The position numbers and the translations under genes are program-made. Shown piece by piece: positions 8,293-53,889 of a DNA stretch of 64,000 bases. Source of the stretch: Polyangiaceae bacterium (GTDB taxonomy: Bacteria > Myxococcota_A > Polyangia > Polyangiales > Polyangiaceae); NCBI GenBank assembly GCA_029941785.1, contig JAPYTK010000002.1, positions 1 to 64,000 on the forward strand. The letters are read 5' to 3'. Numbering within the stretch: position 1 is the stretch's first letter; the number at the start of each line of letters is the position of its first letter. The notes under the pieces are model-generated. The model saw only the letters and a program-made list of their open reading frames with translations. It did not search any database and had not been told where the DNA came from.

Positions 8293-8970
8293 ATGGATCT
8301 GACCCCGATTTTAGTACGAATTCGAGCCTCCGCGGCCGCGGCGGTGCTGTTGGCGCTCGTTTCGGCATCGGTGGGCTGCACCCCAAAGGTGGGCGATAGC
8401 TGCGACACGGCCGTCGATTGCTCGACCTTGGGCGATCGGCTGTGCGACACAAATCAGCCCGGTGGCTACTGTACGATCTTCAACTGCGAGCCGGACGGGT
8501 GCCCCGACGAGGCGGCCTGCGTCGCCTTCGATATCGAGCTCGATCCCGCATGTGGGCCGCTCGACGACGCGCACGCGCCGCGCTTTGGACGCACGTTCTG
8601 CATGCGAGTTTGCGAGGCCGATGACGATTGCCGCAGCGGCTACAAGTGCCTCAAACCGACAGAGCAAGACGCCTTGATGCTGGATTTGGAACAGGAAAAT
8701 GCCACCAACACGCGGGTGTGCTTGGTCGAGACAATCCCGATACCGGCGCCCTCCACCCCCCCCGGGATCTGCGAACCCGGCGACGGGGGAGGCGGCCTCA
8801 CGCCTTATCAGCCCACGTCGACCACTGGCGCGGGCGGAAGCGGCGGCGCGGGCGGAAGCGGAGGGGCCACGTCGACCAGTGGCGCGGGCGGAAGCGGCGG
8901 GGCCACGTCGACCACTGGCGCGGGCGGAAGCGGCGGCGCGGGCGGAAGCGGCGGCGCGGGCGGAAGCTGA
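8293..8970 (+). CDS. Putative lipoprotein with Cys-rich domain and GAGGSGGA repeat tail
   Basis: Signal/lipobox VLLALVSASVGC; CDTAVDCSTLGDRLCD...; C-terminal STTGAGGSGGAGGSGGA repeats; the +2 frame repeats are not conserved-protein-like. Confidence 0.7.
   Translation: MDLTPILVRIRASAAAAVLLALVSASVGCTPKVGDSCDTAVDCSTLGDRLCDTNQPGGYCTIFNCEPDGCPDEAACVAFDIELDPACGPLDDAHAPRFGRTFCMRVCEADDDCRSGYKCLKPTEQDALMLDLEQENATNTRVCLVETIPIPAPSTPPGICEPGDGGGGLTPYQPTSTTGAGGSGGAGGSGGATSTSGAGGSGGATSTTGAGGSGGAGGSGGAGGS
8817..8967 (+). repeat. Imperfect tandem repeat of ggcgcgggcggaagcgg-type units, interspersed with gccacgtcgaccactggc
   Basis: Direct reading of the 3' end of the preceding CDS; encodes the Gly/Ser/Ala/Thr linker. 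Confidence 0.9.
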
Positions 8971-10001
8971 TGTTTGGGCTACGCCCAATGCGACGAAAAT
9001 TCACGGCGGCGCAGCGAGATCTCGGCGCTGACAATCCGGTTGTGCGGGCGGGTGCAGCCGCCGATTTGCCAAGGCACGAAGCGGGGCACCGCGATGAGGT
9101 GATCGAACTTCTGTCGAGTGCGCTGCAGGACGACCACGCGCAAGTGAGAGGGGCCGCAGCACTCGCACTCGCGGACCTAAGCGGCCTCGAAGCGATTCAC
9201 GCCTTGCGAAAGGCGGCGCGCGACAGTGCTCCACACGTTCGGCAGATGGCGCTCACAGCGATCGGTGAAATAGGTGACAAAAGTGCACTGCCCGAGGTCA
9301 AACGATCGCTTCAGGACGAATCGGCGGCGGTCCGCTTTCAGGCGGTCATCGCCTTCCCGCGAATATGTCAAGATCCTGAAACGGCGACCGTCGCCCTTCT
9401 CAACGCCACACGAGATGACGACGATCTCGTGTGTCACATCGCTCTACGCATGGCAGAGGAACTCGGCCACGCGAGCGATGTGGTCGATCCCCGGATTGCC
9501 GATCGCTCCCTCGAGATGCTCGACCATGATTCGGAACGCGTCCAGTTGGCGAGCGCGGTCATCCTGGGCCGAATCGGTCGTCTGGAAGGTCGGGAGATCC
9601 TGCTCGACGCCGCGCGCGGCGTCTTCCGAACAGGAGAACTCGACGATGAGGCTGCAGCGATCGAACTGTGCGGAGAATTGCAGATCCACGATGCCATCGA
9701 CGGGCTCGCCGCCAGAGCTTTTCAACGGCGTCTTTTTCACCGAGATCCGCTCACCTGGCAGGCCCGAGTGGCTCTCGCACGGATGGGTGAGGCTCGCGCC
9801 ATCTCATGGATCGAGCGCGAACTCAGCGCTTGGACGCGCGAGCGGCGAACCTTGGCGGTCGCGGCGGCAGGAAAAGCAAAACTCGCAAGCCTGAAGGCGA
9901 AGCTCGAGGACATGCGGGACAAGCCGCATCTCGCCGATTCTTTCGCCGTGGCCGAAGCTCTCGCCAATCTGGAGGCCTCCGATGAGCCCGTTGAACATTA
10001 A
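8970..10001 (+). CDS. HEAT-repeat protein
   Basis: ATG at 8970 overlaps the upstream TGA; repeated ...VRGAAALALADLSGLEAIHALRKAARDSAPHVRQMALTAIGEIGDKSALPEVKRSLQDESAAVRFQAVIAFPRI.... The track ORF starting at 8628 runs back into the repeat tail in the wrong frame. Confidence 0.85.
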   Translation: MFGLRPMRRKFTAAQRDLGADNPVVRAGAAADLPRHEAGHRDEVIELLSSALQDDHAQVRGAAALALADLSGLEAIHALRKAARDSAPHVRQMALTAIGEIGDKSALPEVKRSLQDESAAVRFQAVIAFPRICQDPETATVALLNATRDDDDLVCHIALRMAEELGHASDVVDPRIADRSLEMLDHDSERVQLASAVILGRIGRLEGREILLDAARGVFRTGELDDEAAAIELCGELQIHDAIDGLAARAFQRRLFHRDPLTWQARVALARMGEARAISWIERELSAWTRERRTLAVAAAGKAKLASLKAKLEDMRDKPHLADSFAVAEALANLEASDEPVEH

Positions 10002-10983
10002 CGGCGTCCGCTACGACGACCGCGAAAGCGGGGGACACGTCGAGAGTTACTTCTTCAAAGCAACCGCGCCCGATGCCGAGCGAGCCTTCTGGATCAAGAC
10101 GACGATTTTTCGAGACCGAACAGGTACACGCGCCGAAGCTTGGGCGATCGCCTTCGACCATCGCGATGCGAGCCGCACGCACGTTGCGGCGAAACACTCG
10201 CTACCCATGTCTCAGGCCAGCTTTGACCGCGATGCCCTCGAGGTGCGCTGGAGAACCGATCACGGTGATCAGATTCACGTCAGCGCAAATCACTTGAGCG
10301 GCCGTGTACACACCGAAGATCATGACTTGTCCTGGGATCTCCGCTTCGAGTCGCGCGGCGCACCGTTCATCACCCTGCCGATGGAACGCATGTACCGCTC
10401 ACGATTCCCGTCTTCCAAGACGGTCACTCCCCATCCTGATGCGTCGTTCTTCGGATCGCTGACCGTGGACGGCGAAACGTGGTCGATCGACGACTGGCGA
10501 GGAATGCAGGGTCACAACTGGGGTCGCAGCCACGCCGAATTGTACGCTTGGCTACACTGCAATCAGTTCAATTGCGGCGATGACCTGGTCATCGAGGCGG
10601 TCAGCGCGAGGATTCCGCTCGGCCCACTCCGACCAACGATGACCGTGATCTACGTGAGGCATCGCGGTCGGGATTTCGCCTTTCACGGGCCGCGCGAACT
10701 TGTGACCTCACACGGCGACATCGGCCTTCGTCGATACAGCTTTGAGGCCAAGAACCGCAGCGCGAGGATCCGCGGCGAAGTCGACGCTAAAACCGCCGAC
10801 TTCGTGGGTTTGTACTATCCCAATCCCGACGGCCCGATGACGTACTGCTTGAACAGCAAACTCGCCTCGCTTCGAGCCCGGATTGAAATCACCGGGACGG
10901 AGCCGATCGACTTCACGTCGCGCGCCGCCGCCCTGGAAATTGGCACGCGAGCGAGCGATCACGGAGTGAGGATGTACGTATGA
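9982..10983 (+). CDS. Two-domain lipocalin-like protein (AttH/CrtC/tocopherol-cyclase-like)
   Basis: ...WSIDDWRGMQGHNWGRSHAELYAWLHCNQF...; overlaps the HEAT gene 3' end and is coupled to the next gene by ATGA. Confidence 0.5.
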   Translation: MSPLNINGVRYDDRESGGHVESYFFKATAPDAERAFWIKTTIFRDRTGTRAEAWAIAFDHRDASRTHVAAKHSLPMSQASFDRDALEVRWRTDHGDQIHVSANHLSGRVHTEDHDLSWDLRFESRGAPFITLPMERMYRSRFPSSKTVTPHPDASFFGSLTVDGETWSIDDWRGMQGHNWGRSHAELYAWLHCNQFNCGDDLVIEAVSARIPLGPLRPTMTVIYVRHRGRDFAFHGPRELVTSHGDIGLRRYSFEAKNRSARIRGEVDAKTADFVGLYYPNPDGPMTYCLNSKLASLRARIEITGTEPIDFTSRAAALEIGTRASDHGVRMYV

Positions 10984-11606
10984 GCGACCAGCCGGCTGCA
11001 GGTGAAGATGTCTTCAGCGAAGACGATCTGGGACCAAGCGCACATGACATTCGCCAAGCGAGGCGCCGACTCGGCGAGCGCATAGCCACAGCGATCGCGG
11101 CCACGTGCTGCGGCGTGTGGGCCGGTGGTTTGATCGCGCTGGGTGCCTGTGCTGCACCGTTGGTTTTCGAGCTAACCCCCTACCCACACTCCGGCAATGC
11201 AATGACCGCCGTGTTCGCACGTTTCGACAGTATTGCCGTGGGCTTGGCGGTCGTGGTACTCGGCTGCGAGGCGGCTCGCACACTCCTCGCCTGGCGAAGC
11301 GGACAGCTCCTCGCGGCCCGTTTTCGGCGTTATCTCGCGATACTCGCCGCGCTGGGCGCGGTCTTCAGCGCCACTCGGCTCACTCCCGCAATACAGTCGT
11401 TGTACTCGCGCGGCGCCCGCCGGGGCTTCGGCGAGGCGGGCCGTCAGTTCGAGGCCCTGCACGCCCAATCCGAAATGGTCGGCAAAGCGACCGTCGTGAT
11501 CGCGGTCGTGCTTATCTTTCTCCACATTTTTACGCTCCAGGGACGCCAAGACGAGGAGACTGACAAAGTGCCCACCCCGCTGCCTCCGGGCGGCCGCCTC
11601 CCCTGA
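10980..11606 (+). CDS. DUF4149-like integral membrane protein
   Basis: GVWAGGLIALGACAAPLVFELTPY...MTAVFARFDSIAVGLAVVVLGCEA; several TM segments. Confidence 0.6.
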   Translation: MSDQPAAGEDVFSEDDLGPSAHDIRQARRRLGERIATAIAATCCGVWAGGLIALGACAAPLVFELTPYPHSGNAMTAVFARFDSIAVGLAVVVLGCEAARTLLAWRSGQLLAARFRRYLAILAALGAVFSATRLTPAIQSLYSRGARRGFGEAGRQFEALHAQSEMVGKATVVIAVVLIFLHIFTLQGRQDEETDKVPTPLPPGGRLP

Positions 11607-11671
11607 TCGGCCCGAAGCTCCCGACCAAGACGAGTGTTGTCGCTCCCGGTGGCGACTTGTACAAAGGAGTC

Positions 11672-11977
11672 ATGAGCGACGATCGCCTGCTGAGCGGCTT
11701 CATGAACCACGATTACGTGATCACCTTTGAAATCGCTGACAAAGATGCACGCCAGGCGATGACCAAGCTGTGCGAGGACGACTGGGACGGCGATGCGATC
11801 ACAACCACGACCTGGGAAATCTCGACCGAGTTGAGCCCCGACAAAATGGAAACCGCCGTGGCAACACACCTCTCGGAAGGCGACCGAGCGGCCTATTATT
11901 ACCTGACCCCGCCTCTTGGCAGCGGGATCCCTGGCGTGGCGGACGCAAAACGAATTTTTCGCGTGGTTTTGAGTTGA
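11672..11977 (+). CDS. Hypothetical protein (about 100 aa)
   Basis: MSDDRLLSGFMNHDYVITFEIADKDARQAM...; AAAGGAG just upstream; no recognisable family; start uncertain. Confidence 0.5.
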   Translation: MSDDRLLSGFMNHDYVITFEIADKDARQAMTKLCEDDWDGDAITTTTWEISTELSPDKMETAVATHLSEGDRAAYYYLTPPLGSGIPGVADAKRIFRVVLS

Positions 11978-12083
11978 TTGGCGGCTTGACGCGATCCTCG
12001 TGCGAGCCCTAGTTTCGAGATTCCAAACGGCGAGGCCTAAGGTTGTAGGCCACCCCCCATCATTCCGGTAACATGCGGCGGAC

Positions 12084-12989
12084 GTGAGCAGCTTCGACGA
12101 AAAGACCCGAGTTACTCAGGTCATTCGACCCTCGGATGCGAATGAAGAGGACGGTATTGACCGTACCGATTGCTTGGTCATCATTTACACGAAGGAGCCC
12201 ACGCTGCTCGGCAAGCGCTTCGTGATCGAAGACAGTCCGATGCGCATCGGTCGCGGGGCTGACAACCATATCGTGCTCGACAGTGACTCCGTCTCCCGCA
12301 GCCATGCTCACTTCATGAAGCAGGAGCAAAAATGGCTGCTGACCGACGACGGGAGCACGAACGGCACCTATTGCAACGATGAGCAAGTCGTCCGCGAGGT
12401 GGCCTTGCTCAACGGCGACCGCATCAAGGTGGGCTCGACCATCTTCAAGTTCCTGTCGGGAGCGGATGTCGAAGCGCAGTACCACGAGGAGATTTATCGG
12501 CTCACCATCGTCGATGGGCTGACCCAGGTACACAACAAGCGGTATCTCTTCGAGGCCCTCGAACGCGAGCTGATCCGTGCTCGACGCCACAACCGAGATC
12601 TCACGGTGTTGATGTTCGACATCGATCACTTCAAGCGGATCAACGATCTTCACGGGCACCTCGCAGGCGACTTCGTGCTGAAAGAACTCGCACGCATCGT
12701 GCAGTCGCGCATTCGTCGAGACGAGGTCTTCGCCCGCTACGGCGGCGAGGAGTTTTGCATCATCCTTCCGGAAACGAAAATTGACGGTGCACTCGAGCTG
12801 GCCGAACGCCTGCGAGGCGAGATCGAAGATCATCTCTTCGTCTTTCAACAAGATGAAATCAGAGCGACGATCAGCATCGGCGCCGCAGAGCTCGCCGAAG
12901 ACGACCGGAACGCATCCGAACTGCTGAAGCGTTCTGACGAGTGTCTGTACGAAGCCAAGAACTCTGGCCGCAATCGCGTCTGCGCATGA
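12084..12989 (+). CDS. FHA-GGDEF diguanylate cyclase-like protein
   Basis: FHA: MRIGRGADNHIVLDSDSVSRSHAHF...DDGSTNGTYCND; GGDEF: DIDHFKRINDLHGHLAGDFVL...FARYGGEEFCIILPET. GTG start at 12084. Confidence 0.9.
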   Translation: MSSFDEKTRVTQVIRPSDANEEDGIDRTDCLVIIYTKEPTLLGKRFVIEDSPMRIGRGADNHIVLDSDSVSRSHAHFMKQEQKWLLTDDGSTNGTYCNDEQVVREVALLNGDRIKVGSTIFKFLSGADVEAQYHEEIYRLTIVDGLTQVHNKRYLFEALERELIRARRHNRDLTVLMFDIDHFKRINDLHGHLAGDFVLKELARIVQSRIRRDEVFARYGGEEFCIILPETKIDGALELAERLRGEIEDHLFVFQQDEIRATISIGAAELAEDDRNASELLKRSDECLYEAKNSGRNRVCA

Positions 12990-14314
12990 GCGCCGACTCT
13001 GCGTCGGACCTCAAAGGTCTCGAGCTGGCGCGACGCTTGGCAGCTGTCGATTGCCCAGCCTTCGCCCACCGCCGCAACAGCCGCGCCGGCGCAAGTCCCG
13101 ACGGACCTCCCCCGATCGTTCTTGCGCGGGGCCGCGGACACGAGGTCACCGACGTCGATGGACGCACCTACGTCGATCTCGTTGCCGGCTTCGGGTCCCT
13201 GCTACTCGGCCACGATCACCCCGCCATCAGACAAGCGATCGCGAAGCAATCGACCAAGCTCGTACAAGGGATGGGCGACGTCTACGCGAGCGACGTGAAA
13301 GTCGAGATCATGGAGCGCATCGCCGCGCTCAGCGCCGCGGCCTTCGATTGGCCAGACGCGCAGGTGCTCCTGTGCCAATCAGGCGGAGATGCCGTCACCG
13401 CGGCGCTCAAGACCGCTACGCTCGCAACCGGCCGCGACACGATTATCGCCTTCGATGGCGCCTACCATGGTCTCGGATACGCCCCACTGGCGGCCTGCGG
13501 TTTTCAGGCGGGCTTTCGAGCACCTTTCGCGGAGCAACTCAGCAAACACATCCTCTTCGCCCCCTACCCGGGCGTGCGCGGCGCGACGGAGAGACACGCC
13601 CTCGACTTCGTCGCGCAATGCCTGGAGCAAGAGAAGGTCGCCGCAGTGCTCGTCGAGCCAATCTTGGGACGAGGTGGCTGCATCGTGCCCCCAACGAACT
13701 TCCTTCGGCAACTCGCCGCCCAGGCTCGGGCGAGCGGCGCGTTGCTCATCGCCGATGAAATCTGGACCGGCTTGGGCCGCACGGGCACCCTCGTTCGATC
13801 CGCTGACGAGGGTGCACATGCCGACATCGTCTGCTTTGGCAAAGGGCTGGGTGGTGGTCTGTCGCTCTCCGCCTGCGTCGCGCCGGCGGCGATCATGGGC
13901 GCATGGGCCCAAGGAGGCCAGGTCGTCCACTCCTCCACTCACGCCGGCCACCCCCTGTCGTGCGCCACGGCGCTCGCCACGCTCGAGACGCTCGAACGCG
14001 AACAACTCGTCCGTCGCTCACGCGAAGTGGGATCGCGGTTCGTGGCCACGCTACAGCGCGAACTCACCAGCCTCGAAGCGGTCACGGAGATCCGCGGAGA
14101 AGGCCTGCTCATCGGAATCGAGTTGAGTTCGGCCGCCCTCACGCAACGCCTGGTAGGCGAACTGCGCGAAGCCGGCTTTCTCGTCATCACGGGCGGCGTC
14201 GCCGGCGACACCCTCACGCTAAGTCCCGCACTCACAATCGAGGAAGCGGAATTGAACCGCTTCGCCACGACCTTGTCCTCGCTCCTGCACTCAGCTGCCG
14301 CCGAGACCGATTGA
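12986..14314 (+). CDS. Class-III (PLP, fold type I) aminotransferase
   Basis: AFDGAYHGLGYAPLA, LLIADEIWTGLGRTGTL, FGKGLGGGLSLSACVAP (PLP-Lys context), STHAGHPLSCATALATLE. ATG at 12986 overlaps the upstream TGA. Confidence 0.9.
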   Translation: MSADSASDLKGLELARRLAAVDCPAFAHRRNSRAGASPDGPPPIVLARGRGHEVTDVDGRTYVDLVAGFGSLLLGHDHPAIRQAIAKQSTKLVQGMGDVYASDVKVEIMERIAALSAAAFDWPDAQVLLCQSGGDAVTAALKTATLATGRDTIIAFDGAYHGLGYAPLAACGFQAGFRAPFAEQLSKHILFAPYPGVRGATERHALDFVAQCLEQEKVAAVLVEPILGRGGCIVPPTNFLRQLAAQARASGALLIADEIWTGLGRTGTLVRSADEGAHADIVCFGKGLGGGLSLSACVAPAAIMGAWAQGGQVVHSSTHAGHPLSCATALATLETLEREQLVRRSREVGSRFVATLQRELTSLEAVTEIRGEGLLIGIELSSAALTQRLVGELREAGFLVITGGVAGDTLTLSPALTIEEAELNRFATTLSSLLHSAAAETD

Positions 14315-42730: not shown

Positions 42731-43474
42731 TCAATTTTGGAGCGCGTAGCGCTCGAGAAATCGCCGAATGAGGTGCGTGCTTTCGTCTCGCCCCACGCGA
42801 AACAGACTTGAGGGGGGCGCCTCATCCTCGAGGGGGCGAAGGCTTCGATGATAGGCGACGTAACGGTCGGTCGCCTCGGCGCCGCTCAAGTCGGGGTGAA
42901 ATTGGGTGGTGTAGATAGGTGCACCTTTGACTCGGAAGATCTGGGTTGGCAAGGCATCGTTCGAAGCGAGCAGCTGCAAGGAGTCGGGAACCTCCCCAAC
43001 GTGGTCGCTGTGGCCTGTATGAACATCGAAGGTCGGTCCAAATTCGGAGATCAGGGGATCGGAGCGACCCTCAGCGTTGAGAGTGATGGTGGTCGTACCG
43101 AGTTCGGCGTGGTTGACGTCGGTGTTGACGGGGGCACCTAGATGATAGGCGAGGAGCTGATGACCGAAACAGATCCCGAGCGTAGGCGTGCTTCGGGTGA
43201 GAATGGTTTCGAGTAGGCCGCGCAACTGATTCACCCATGTAGCGCTCCGTGGGTCGTGGACGCTGTAATCACCGGAGCCACCGATGATGATGGCGTGGAA
43301 GTCCTCGGTCCACGAGGGGCGGGGCGGATCGGTGAAGATGTTTCGGGTGGTCAAGCGCACTCCGGGGCCGGCTCGGCGGACCACGCATTCGCGCTCATGG
43401 CTTGCCATCGGGTCGTTGGGTTGCCGGACCTGCACCAGCAGCAGGTCGATAGGGGGCTCTGTTTGGGTCGTCAT
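42731..43474 (-). CDS. Class-I glutamine amidotransferase (GMP synthase GATase-like)
   Basis: TLGICFGHQLLAYHLGA (nucleophile Cys), TTQFHPDLSGAEATD. Confidence 0.88.
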   Translation of the reverse strand: MTTQTEPPIDLLLVQVRQPNDPMASHERECVVRRAGPGVRLTTRNIFTDPPRPSWTEDFHAIIIGGSGDYSVHDPRSATWVNQLRGLLETILTRSTPTLGICFGHQLLAYHLGAPVNTDVNHAELGTTTITLNAEGRSDPLISEFGPTFDVHTGHSDHVGEVPDSLQLLASNDALPTQIFRVKGAPIYTTQFHPDLSGAEATDRYVAYHRSLRPLEDEAPPSSLFRVGRDESTHLIRRFLERYALQN

Positions 43475-43494: not shown

Positions 43495-43510
43495 TGTTTC
43501 ACGTGAAACA
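43495..43510. promoter_or_regulatory. parS (ParB-binding centromere-like site)
   Basis: Exact 16-bp palindrome TGTTTCACGTGAAACA, matching the widely conserved bacterial parS consensus. Confidence 0.93.
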
Positions 43511-44194
43511 TGGGTGGTCAAACACACTCTCCTCCGCGCTGAACCGTTGAACGCGAGCCGCTCCAAAAGGAAGCCAGCCCACCACTTCCTGCCCAGATAC
43601 GCTTTCAATCTCCCGCGCATTGGACCGCACGAAGCCCTCATCGGACTCGCCGTTGGCACCGCAAAGCACCACCCCGGCCACCTCGACGCCGCGCGACCAA
43701 AGAGCCTCAAGGGTGAGCACGGTGTGGTTGATGGTCCCCAGCCCGTCGGTTGCGACGACCAACACCGCGAGCCCGAGTCCTACCATCAAGTCCGCCACTG
43801 TCAGCTCCGGGCCGACCGGAACCATGATCCCCCCTGCCCCTTCTACCAGAAGAACCTCACACCCCACGGCCCGCGCCCTGGCCAACATGGCTTGCACATC
43901 TGTGATCGCCATCTCCGAGCCTTCCGACCTCGCCGCGACCCCCGGCGCAACCGCCGCCTCGTAACGGAAACCACAAACCTCATCGAGACGCAGATCCGCC
44001 GTCATCGCCGCGAGCAACCGTATCGCGTCCTCTGGCACGAGCTCCCCCGAGCTCCCTCGAACACAGCCTGACTCCGCAGGCTTCAACGCACATGTCCGAA
44101 GTCCTCGCTCACTCGCCTCGGCAAGCAGCGCACACGCCACCGTGGTCTTCCCGACCCCGGTTCCCGTTCCGCTCACGAACAACTCCATCACCAT
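43499..44194 (-). CDS. bioD: Dethiobiotin synthase
   Basis: ELFVSGTGTGVGKTTVACALLAEA, LKPAESGC, LLVEGAGGIMVPVG. Confidence 0.93.
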   Translation of the reverse strand: MVMELFVSGTGTGVGKTTVACALLAEASERGLRTCALKPAESGCVRGSSGELVPEDAIRLLAAMTADLRLDEVCGFRYEAAVAPGVAARSEGSEMAITDVQAMLARARAVGCEVLLVEGAGGIMVPVGPELTVADLMVGLGLAVLVVATDGLGTINHTVLTLEALWSRGVEVAGVVLCGANGESDEGFVRSNAREIESVSGQEVVGWLPFGAARVQRFSAEESVFDHPCFT

Positions 44195-44253
44195 GTTTCC
44201 TACGTAAACATTAAGTGCTCCCTCAGGAAGCCACCTCGACTAGCCTAGCCGAG

Positions 44254-45525
44254 ATGACCCCAGAGCTGCACCACGTGCTCCTCCTGTCCATCTTGTTCAT
44301 CCTGCCGAAGGCTCTGCAAAAGTTCGGACTCCCGTCCGCTATCACGAGCTTCGCCCTCGGCGCCCTGTGCGCCTTCGGCCACCACGCCGTGAACCTCTTC
44401 CGAGACAACCCCATCGCGCAGGGCCCCTTCGTCGGCGATCCAACCGTCAAAGCCCTGGGCACCTTCGGCATCGTCGCCCTCTTTCTGTACGCCGGCCTCG
44501 AGATCGACGTCGACGAACTCAAAAAAGGCGCGCGTACCATCGCCACCCACCTCGTCCTTCGGCTCATGGTCTTGTCCGGCGTCTCCTTCGCACTCGTCAA
44601 GTTGATCGGCCTGCCCGTTCGCCCCGCTCTCGTCATCGCCCTCGCTCTGCTCACACCGTCCACCGGTTTCATCATCGAATCCATCAACACACTCCCCCTC
44701 AGCGACGACGAAAAATACTGGATCAAGACCAAAGCCATCTCCAGCGAGCTGGTCGCGCTCTTCGTGCTGTTCTTCGTCCTTAACAGCGACTCCCCCGTGC
44801 GACTCGGACTCTCGACGCTCGCCCTCGTGGCCATGATCATGCTCCTGCCCGTCGCCTTCCGTCTCTTCGCACGCTACGTCGCGCCGCACGCTCCCAAGAG
44901 CGAGTTCGCGTTCCTCGTCATGATCGCGGTGGTCTGCGCCTACATCACCAAATCCCTGGGCGTGTACTACCTCGTCGGCGCGTTCGTCGTCGGCCTCGCC
45001 GCACAATGGTGCCAGCGCGAGCTACCCGCCATCGCATCGCACAACATGCTCCACGCCATCGATCTGTTCGCCTCCTTCTTCATTCCCTTCTATTTCTTCA
45101 AGGCAGGGCTCTCACTGCAAGCCTCCGATTTTAGCTTCAAGGCGGTGCTCGTTGGCGCCCTGTTCCTCATCGCCGTCATCCCTCTGCGGCTTCTCATCAT
45201 TCTGATCCAACGGCGGATCGCGAACCAAGAACTCGCCCAGCGCAGCCTCCGCATCGCCATCCCGATGCTCCCCACATTGGTCTTCACCCTCGTGTTGTCG
45301 AGCATCTTGCGCGAGCAATACGAGAGTCAGATCGACGCCTTCCTCTTCGGTGGCCTGCTCATCTACACGCTCGTCAACACCATCGTGCCGGGCTTTGTCA
45401 TGCGCGGCGCGGCAACCGATTACGAGCGCGATTCCTTGCGCCTCTCTACGATACCGCAAGCCGCCCCGGCGACGGTCCATCCCGACAACGCCGCGCCCGA
45501 TACCTCCTCGCCGACGGTCAAATGA
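44254..45525 (+). CDS. Cation:proton antiporter (CPA2/Kef-type)
   Basis: Multi-TM; ITSFALGALCAFG, LFLYAGLEIDVDELKK, TPSTGFIIESI. Confidence 0.85.
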   Translation: MTPELHHVLLLSILFILPKALQKFGLPSAITSFALGALCAFGHHAVNLFRDNPIAQGPFVGDPTVKALGTFGIVALFLYAGLEIDVDELKKGARTIATHLVLRLMVLSGVSFALVKLIGLPVRPALVIALALLTPSTGFIIESINTLPLSDDEKYWIKTKAISSELVALFVLFFVLNSDSPVRLGLSTLALVAMIMLLPVAFRLFARYVAPHAPKSEFAFLVMIAVVCAYITKSLGVYYLVGAFVVGLAAQWCQRELPAIASHNMLHAIDLFASFFIPFYFFKAGLSLQASDFSFKAVLVGALFLIAVIPLRLLIILIQRRIANQELAQRSLRIAIPMLPTLVFTLVLSSILREQYESQIDAFLFGGLLIYTLVNTIVPGFVMRGAATDYERDSLRLSTIPQAAPATVHPDNAAPDTSSPTVK

Positions 45526-52392: not shown

Positions 52393-52764
52393 CCCAAATT
52401 GCCCCTGTTTGCCTGTGGATAGCCAACCCTAAGCTTGTGTATGCAATCAGCCGATCCGGGACCAAACCTGTGGACAGATCCCGTCGCCTACATAAGTACA
52501 CAACTAACCTACCTAACAATACACCGGTTTTACCCCGCCAAACATCACATTAACTTATTGTTATTATTATTATTATTGCTTTTATCCCCACTTTCCACAG
52601 GCCCTACTACGACGATCAAATATATAAATATCTAATATTCATCGGCCCTAAATGTGGATATCTCTGGTGTAGGTTGATGTAGGTTTTTAACTGATTTCGA
52701 TTTGTGTCCCTTCCGTCTTTCGCCCGCCCAAATCCCTGCTAAAGATGACTGGAAGCCTGGCATC
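52393..52764. other. Candidate replication origin (oriC): AT-rich region with DnaA-box-like sites
   Basis: TGTGGATAG 52414-52422, TGTGGACAG 52469-52477, TTATCCCCA 52582-52590, CTTTCCACA 52591-52599, TGTGGATAT 52653-52661; TTA trinucleotide tract 52561-52577; immediately upstream of dnaN. Confidence 0.65.
52561..52577 (+). repeat. (TTA)n trinucleotide tract, AT-rich
   Basis: ttattattattattatt read directly, adjacent to the TTATCCCCA box. Confidence 0.9.
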
Positions 52765-53889
52765 ATGAAGCTCGTCGTCCCCAAAAAGAACTTGTTGAGA
52801 CTCTTGCAGCGATGCCAAGGAGTAGCCGACAAAAAAAGCACGATGCCGGTGCTCGCCAACGTTCTCATTTCGGCCCGTGACAACCTCGTTGAAGTTGCAG
52901 CAACCGATTTGTACATCTCGGTTCGTGGATCGACTGAGGCGGAGATAGAACGAGAAGGCGCGGTGGCCATTCCGGCTCGCGATGTTTTCAATCGTGTAAA
53001 GTACATGCCCGAAGGACCGATCGAGATCGACGTCGCGGATGGTGCGACGACGATCATCAAATCGGGAAGCAGTGCGCGTCGTTACACCTTGCACGGATTA
53101 CCTGGGGCCGATTTTCCAAAGTTGCCCATTCCGAATGAGGAAGGTGTCAAGATCGATCTTCCGATCAACACCTTGCAACAACTCATCGCGCGGACTCATT
53201 TTTCGATTTCGCATGACGAAACACGCGCCCACTTGAACAGCGCTTTGTTCGAGTGCGGAGACGGAGTGGTTCGGATGGTGACCACCGATGGTCATCGCTT
53301 GAGCAAGATGGAAATACCGGTCGAAAAACTGAGCGGCTCGACGACCATGCTCGTGCCTCTCAAGGCCGTCATGGAGCTTCGAAAACTGACCGATGAAGTG
53401 ACGGAGAACCGAGAAACGACGGTCATTCGTGTATCGCAAGCTGGTCCGAACGCTTTCTTTGATCTGTGCGGCGTCCAGTTTTCAGTGAAGCTGATCGATG
53501 CTCAATTCCCTCCTTATGAGGCGGTCATTCCCGCAACCACCGATCGAGCCGTACGCACCTCTCGTAGCGCCTTGGCGGATGCCCTCAAGGCGGTTTCCCT
53601 GGCAGCTAACGAGCGAACAGGAGGCGTGAAGCTCAGCGTGGCCGACAACTCGCTTCGAATAAGCAGCGAGAGCCCAGAGAGCGGCAATGGTTACGATCAA
53701 GTGCCGGTCGACTACGAGGGCCCGGAGATCTCCGTCGGCTTCAACGCACACTATCTGCTCGACGTTCTTCAATCGATCGATGATGAGGATGTGACGCTCG
53801 GATTATCTGGCGAGCTCGATCCCGCGGTGGTTCGCCCGGCCAGCGAGCATGACGACTACATTGCCGTCGTCATGCCGATGAGGATCTGA
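52765..53889 (+). CDS. dnaN: DNA polymerase III subunit beta (sliding clamp)
   Basis: MKLVVPKKNLLRLLQRCQGVADKKSTMPVLANVLI...MVTTDGHRLSKME...DYIAVVMPMRI. Confidence 0.97.
   Translation: MKLVVPKKNLLRLLQRCQGVADKKSTMPVLANVLISARDNLVEVAATDLYISVRGSTEAEIEREGAVAIPARDVFNRVKYMPEGPIEIDVADGATTIIKSGSSARRYTLHGLPGADFPKLPIPNEEGVKIDLPINTLQQLIARTHFSISHDETRAHLNSALFECGDGVVRMVTTDGHRLSKMEIPVEKLSGSTTMLVPLKAVMELRKLTDEVTENRETTVIRVSQAGPNAFFDLCGVQFSVKLIDAQFPPYEAVIPATTDRAVRTSRSALADALKAVSLAANERTGGVKLSVADNSLRISSESPESGNGYDQVPVDYEGPEISVGFNAHYLLDVLQSIDDEDVTLGLSGELDPAVVRPASEHDDYIAVVMPMRI

Follow-up and report, generated by a model that had tools for sequence, protein, structure and literature searches.

The exact 16-bp palindrome that overlaps the 3′ end of bioD in the 64,000-nt stretch of Polyangiaceae DNA analyzed here (the window) raises the question of whether it is the chromosomal parS site of this bacterium, and of how a centromere could be accommodated in a gene for biotin synthesis. 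The palindrome and the genes around it are as follows:

43495..43510, no strand: parS (almost certainly), exact 16-bp palindrome TGTTTCACGTGAAACA
43499..44194, minus strand: bioD, dethiobiotin synthase, 231 aa (TIGR00347, 136 bits; Pfam AAA_26, aa 4–210)
42731..43474, minus strand: class-I glutamine amidotransferase gene (PF00117), starting about 20 bp beyond parS; no demonstrated role
44215..45525, plus strand: CPA2-type cation:proton antiporter gene (TIGR00932 below cut-off; synteny)

The scan of the window showed that TGTTTCACGTGAAACA is matched exactly at 43495–43510, as an earlier note on this DNA had claimed, and that this is the sole match in the window even when three mismatches are allowed. 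The site fits the parS pattern TGTTNCACGTGAAACA exactly, and its flanking A/T extends the palindrome to 18 bp, ATGTTTCACGTGAAACAT. It is also the only perfect copy in the whole 6.03 Mb assembly, where one site with two mismatches was found elsewhere (C64:12110); the reversed-pattern control gave zero matches in the same genome-wide search, and the number expected by chance from base composition is about 3e-4 (0.0003) per genome. The scan with one mismatch allowed was uninformative on its own, with seven matches in this genome versus 25 for the reversed control. The assembly consists of 415 contigs and is 98.8% complete, and a further parS site could be missing from it.

The location of the site was compared with the markers of the replication origin in the window:

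52702..53889, plus strand: dnaN, origin marker (TIGR00663, match from 52765)
52393..52701, no strand: predicted oriC, the AT-rich gap before dnaN, containing three near-DnaA-box sequences

The palindrome lies 9.2 kb from dnaN, beside the predicted oriC, whose near-DnaA boxes at 52414, 52582, and 52653 are all imperfect, and 9.4 kb from the cumulative GC-skew minimum of the 81.4 kb contig, at 52887. A random site would be as near to dnaN and the skew minimum with a chance of about 0.3%. Hence, the origin-proximal placement about 9 kb from dnaN that had been proposed earlier was confirmed, and the site combines the rarity and the origin proximity of a chromosomal parS. The clustering of matching palindromes around the skew-defined origin, which the earlier note had named as a test, was not visible, because there is only one site, some 9.3 kb away from both dnaN and the skew minimum. 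The recF and gyrB genes come after dnaN (dnaN–recF–gyrB, 52.7–57.7 kb), while dnaA is on a separate contig (C87), unlinked from dnaN and from the skew-defined origin. In the complete genome of a relative (G034), dnaA is at position 0, while bioD, parS, and dnaN are at 0.72 Mb, and the sampled skew stays negative until about 0.70 Mb, after which it is mostly positive. The skew turns at dnaN, bioD, and parS, and not at dnaA, so the origin is likely on the dnaN side; the position of dnaA, which lies 0.72 Mb from dnaN in G034, marks the origin poorly in this family. The GC skew in two other relatives, G022 and G048, was too weak for placing origins.

A single ParB above the TIGR00180 cut-off was found in the genome, on a contig other than that of parS:

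L033 (contig C23), 12298–13278: parB (TIGR00180 over cut-off), with parA directly before it

On this contig, which is without a parS site, parA and parB come after two genes that we take, by eye from their sequences, to be tig and clpP (8909–13278 for the whole group). This agrees with the earlier observation that parAB is not in the window. The best solved homologs of the protein are ParB chains, and it contains the motifs GERRWRA, GKSR, and GHGR, that is, both the CTP-binding motif and the parS-specific residues. GKSR and GHGR correspond, by an equivalence read from motif context, to R173 and G201 in Caulobacter numbering, which are the residues giving parS rather than NBS specificity (PMC7383237). 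The sole perfect copy, its position near the origin, and the canonical ParB together suggest that the palindrome is almost certainly the chromosomal parS of this bacterium.

In this genome parS and parB are on different contigs, and their apparent separation would be unlike the usual, though not defining, location of par operons within the origin domain (PMC7022226). In three relatives with complete, single-contig genomes, G034, G048, and G022, parB is 5.57, 4.69, and 4.36 Mb from parS, or 98%, 91%, and 71% of a half-chromosome, respectively; this is a small sample, and the origin is supported by skew in G034 alone. ParB was present in 58 of the 59 genomes searched in the order. The 92% complete assembly of G025 contains dnaA and gave no match to ParB, bioD, dnaN, or parS, and its origin region is probably missing.

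To describe how parS is accommodated in bioD, the reading frame was examined. The identity of the gene is well supported (TIGR00347, 136 bits against the NCBIfam cut-off of 83.3). The open reading frame ends with DHPCFT and a stop, encoded on the minus strand by TGT TTC ACG TGA at 43510–43499, and these last 12 bases are inside parS, which bears out the earlier reading of the last three BioD residues plus stop. Because homology to solved BioD structures ends at residue 215 of 231, parS encodes tail residues only. The overlap with the stop can be explained by the in-frame TGA of the palindrome, which can act as a stop codon. The antiporter gene is divergent from bioD and adjoins it also in G001, a genome of the same genus. 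The bioA gene is absent from the bioF–bioD neighborhood and located elsewhere, which rules out a linkage of the whole bio operon to parS.

The BioD of the window is not of the type usual in its family. It groups with the BioD of G026 (support 100/96), separately from a 29-member clade (99/98) of the usual BioDs, which includes those of the same-genus genomes G001 and G002. In G001 the antiporter neighbor is the same, and dnaN is at a similar distance as in the window. This pattern suggests an in-place replacement of bioD, its 3′ end carrying parS, and an ancient duplication followed by loss would be an alternative origin of this BioD lineage. The earlier note had asked whether the C-F-T-stop ending is conserved only where parS is. 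Among about 50 BioDs it was seen only in the window genome and in G005, both of which have parS at this place; G005, however, has the usual BioD type, yet the same ending over parS. The different lineages of the two carriers rule out C-F-T-stop as a conserved protein feature, and point instead to convergent re-use of the in-frame TGA of the site.

To see how far the placement at biotin genes extends, the 59 genomes of the order, including that of the window, were searched with the 14-bp core GTTTCACGTGAAAC; the exact 16-mer, found in 24 of them, understates parS, as its outer bases vary. The exact core was present in 45 of the 59 genomes, with zero matches to the reversed pattern, and 38 of these 45 have at least one copy no more than 5 kb from bioD or bioF (36 of them no more than 1.5 kb), counts which, as the genomes are related, show a conserved position rather than independent events. 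At the level of sites, 76 of 99 fall inside this 5 kb limit and 20 are inside the two genes. In the remaining seven genomes bioD is missing, the sites are on other or short contigs, or the sequence was outside the stretches compared. The distance from dnaN to parS, assembled by hand for the 22 genomes in which one contig carries both, is 3–71 kb, with a median of 12.7 kb. In two genomes of family f6, G041 (L037) and G055 (L038), parS adjoins a gene with a dnaJ-like match and there is no bioD match; here parS was apparently kept after the loss of bioD. The distribution in G020 is far more dispersed than in its relatives, with eight exact cores over 16 kb of contig C87 (L049/L050), in stretches without bioD or bioF matches.

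Outside the order, bioD or bioF is about 3 kb or less from parS in four of the five genomes taken from other families of the class. Of 27 class genomes sampled in addition, six carry the exact core no more than 1.5 kb from bioD, against a chance expectation of about 0.03; the f47 genomes in this sample have bioF–bioD with no core within the 1.5 kb flank. In four genomes from other classes of the phylum (G060, G089, G106, and G115) parS has the same 14-bp core, but is located beside parAB, within about 1.3 kb of parA or parB, a neighborhood resembling that in Myxococcus xanthus, with no bioF or bioD match in the stretches compared. Hence, the linkage to biotin genes is a feature of this class, patchy and strongest in the order of the window.

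Within the bioF–bioD region the sites recur at definite places, which are just upstream of bioF or early in it, including around codon 46, the bioD start, the region of bioD codon 60, and the 3′ end of bioD, the last in the window genome, G005, and G026. Because the site is palindromic, the same three readings are obtained on both strands: V-S-R-E-T, F-H-V-K, and F-T-stop. At the bioD start V-S-R-E-T is in frame in G021, G032, and G034, where its translation depends on the start codon used, and the same reading is found at bioD codon 48 in G030. Near codon 60, parS is read in frame as F-H-V-K in 12 genomes, 11 of them in one alignment column, while the G008 copy is offset by nine columns where the alignment has gaps. 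All 12 use the codons TTT CAC GTG AAA, for which the combined background probability in these genes is about 0.02, and F-H-V-K with other codons was not found in that region among the BioDs compared. Hence, selection in these cases appears to act on the DNA and not on the peptide.

The observed sequence, position, gene identities, and conservation, together with the canonical ParB, are consistent with the following model of ParB binding, loading, and segregation at this site, which we consider very probable as a whole. ParB from the distant parAB operon would load at the chromosomal parS in bioD, close as a CTP-bound clamp, and slide over the adjacent kilobases, probably as far as the predicted origin at a distance of 9 kb; the duplicated origins would then be separated by ParA. 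A single origin-proximal parS is sufficient in Pseudomonas aeruginosa (PMC4368675). The probably dispensable C-terminal tail of BioD could absorb the overlap of parS with the stop codon at little cost. The centromere of the order would have been held for a long time in or beside bioF–bioD near dnaN, with copies lost, gained, and shifted among a few places.

The long-held address could alternatively reflect a selected, functional association, in which ParB loading regulates the biotin genes or biotin expression tunes the loading. The recurrence of parS at definite places of bioF and bioD would fit such a role, as would its retention at bioD in the window genome despite a BioD of a different lineage, and in P. 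aeruginosa ParB is reported to repress promoters that adjoin strong parS sites (PMC5521831). However, plain conservation of gene order near the origin suffices without any function, parS is found without a bioD match in G041 and G055, many class members have bioF–bioD without parS within 1.5 kb, and bioA is elsewhere, which makes this explanation unlikely. Equally doubtful is its broader form, in which the order, and patchily the class, keeps its centromere in bioF–bioD, writing F-H-V-K into BioD, and parAB in the distal half of the chromosome, with the linkage held by a mutual influence of centromere and biotin genes.

That the palindrome could be a transcription factor operator, for bioD or for the amidotransferase gene about 20 bp beyond, is suggested by its perfect symmetry and its position shortly before the amidotransferase start codon (ATG at 43474). 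It is, however, the parS consensus that the palindrome matches, and 45 genomes share the identical 14-bp core, whose gene contexts vary and are often well inside coding sequence, so that an operator is very improbable. A chance 16-mer is untenable given the distribution of the core, since the placement is conserved in relatives and the expected number per genome is so low.

The chromosomal parS proposed here is in itself a canonical, textbook site, and intragenic parS sites are already known. The open-access papers searched contain no description of the order-wide biotin-gene address or of its separation from parAB, and nothing on point for parS with bioD or for ParB–parS of Sorangium or Polyangium. 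The comparative result is more useful than the single site, as it describes a centromere address conserved across the order independently of parAB. It also provides cases in which one stretch of DNA is both centromere and enzyme code, and a system for testing the need for parAB near the origin, which is assumed in the usual description of ParABS.

Among the known systems, Myxococcus xanthus, probably of the same phylum as judged from gene content and ParB similarity, similarly has canonical ParB/parS segregation near the origin, and its consensus TGTTCCACGTGGAACG differs from TGTTTCACGTGAAACA of the window in the core at two variable positions only (PMC3778016, PMC3899335). On the other hand, the 22–24 sites of M. 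xanthus precede parA by about 4 kb, and its parAB is about 30–35 kb from ori (PMC3778016, PMC3899335), while the window genome has one site, in bioD, and its parAB elsewhere. The P. aeruginosa sites are similar in that nine of ten are in coding sequences and that, of parS1–4, the four sites no more than 16 kb from oriC, one is enough (PMC4368675), while they differ in number, with ten in that genome versus one in the genome of the window.
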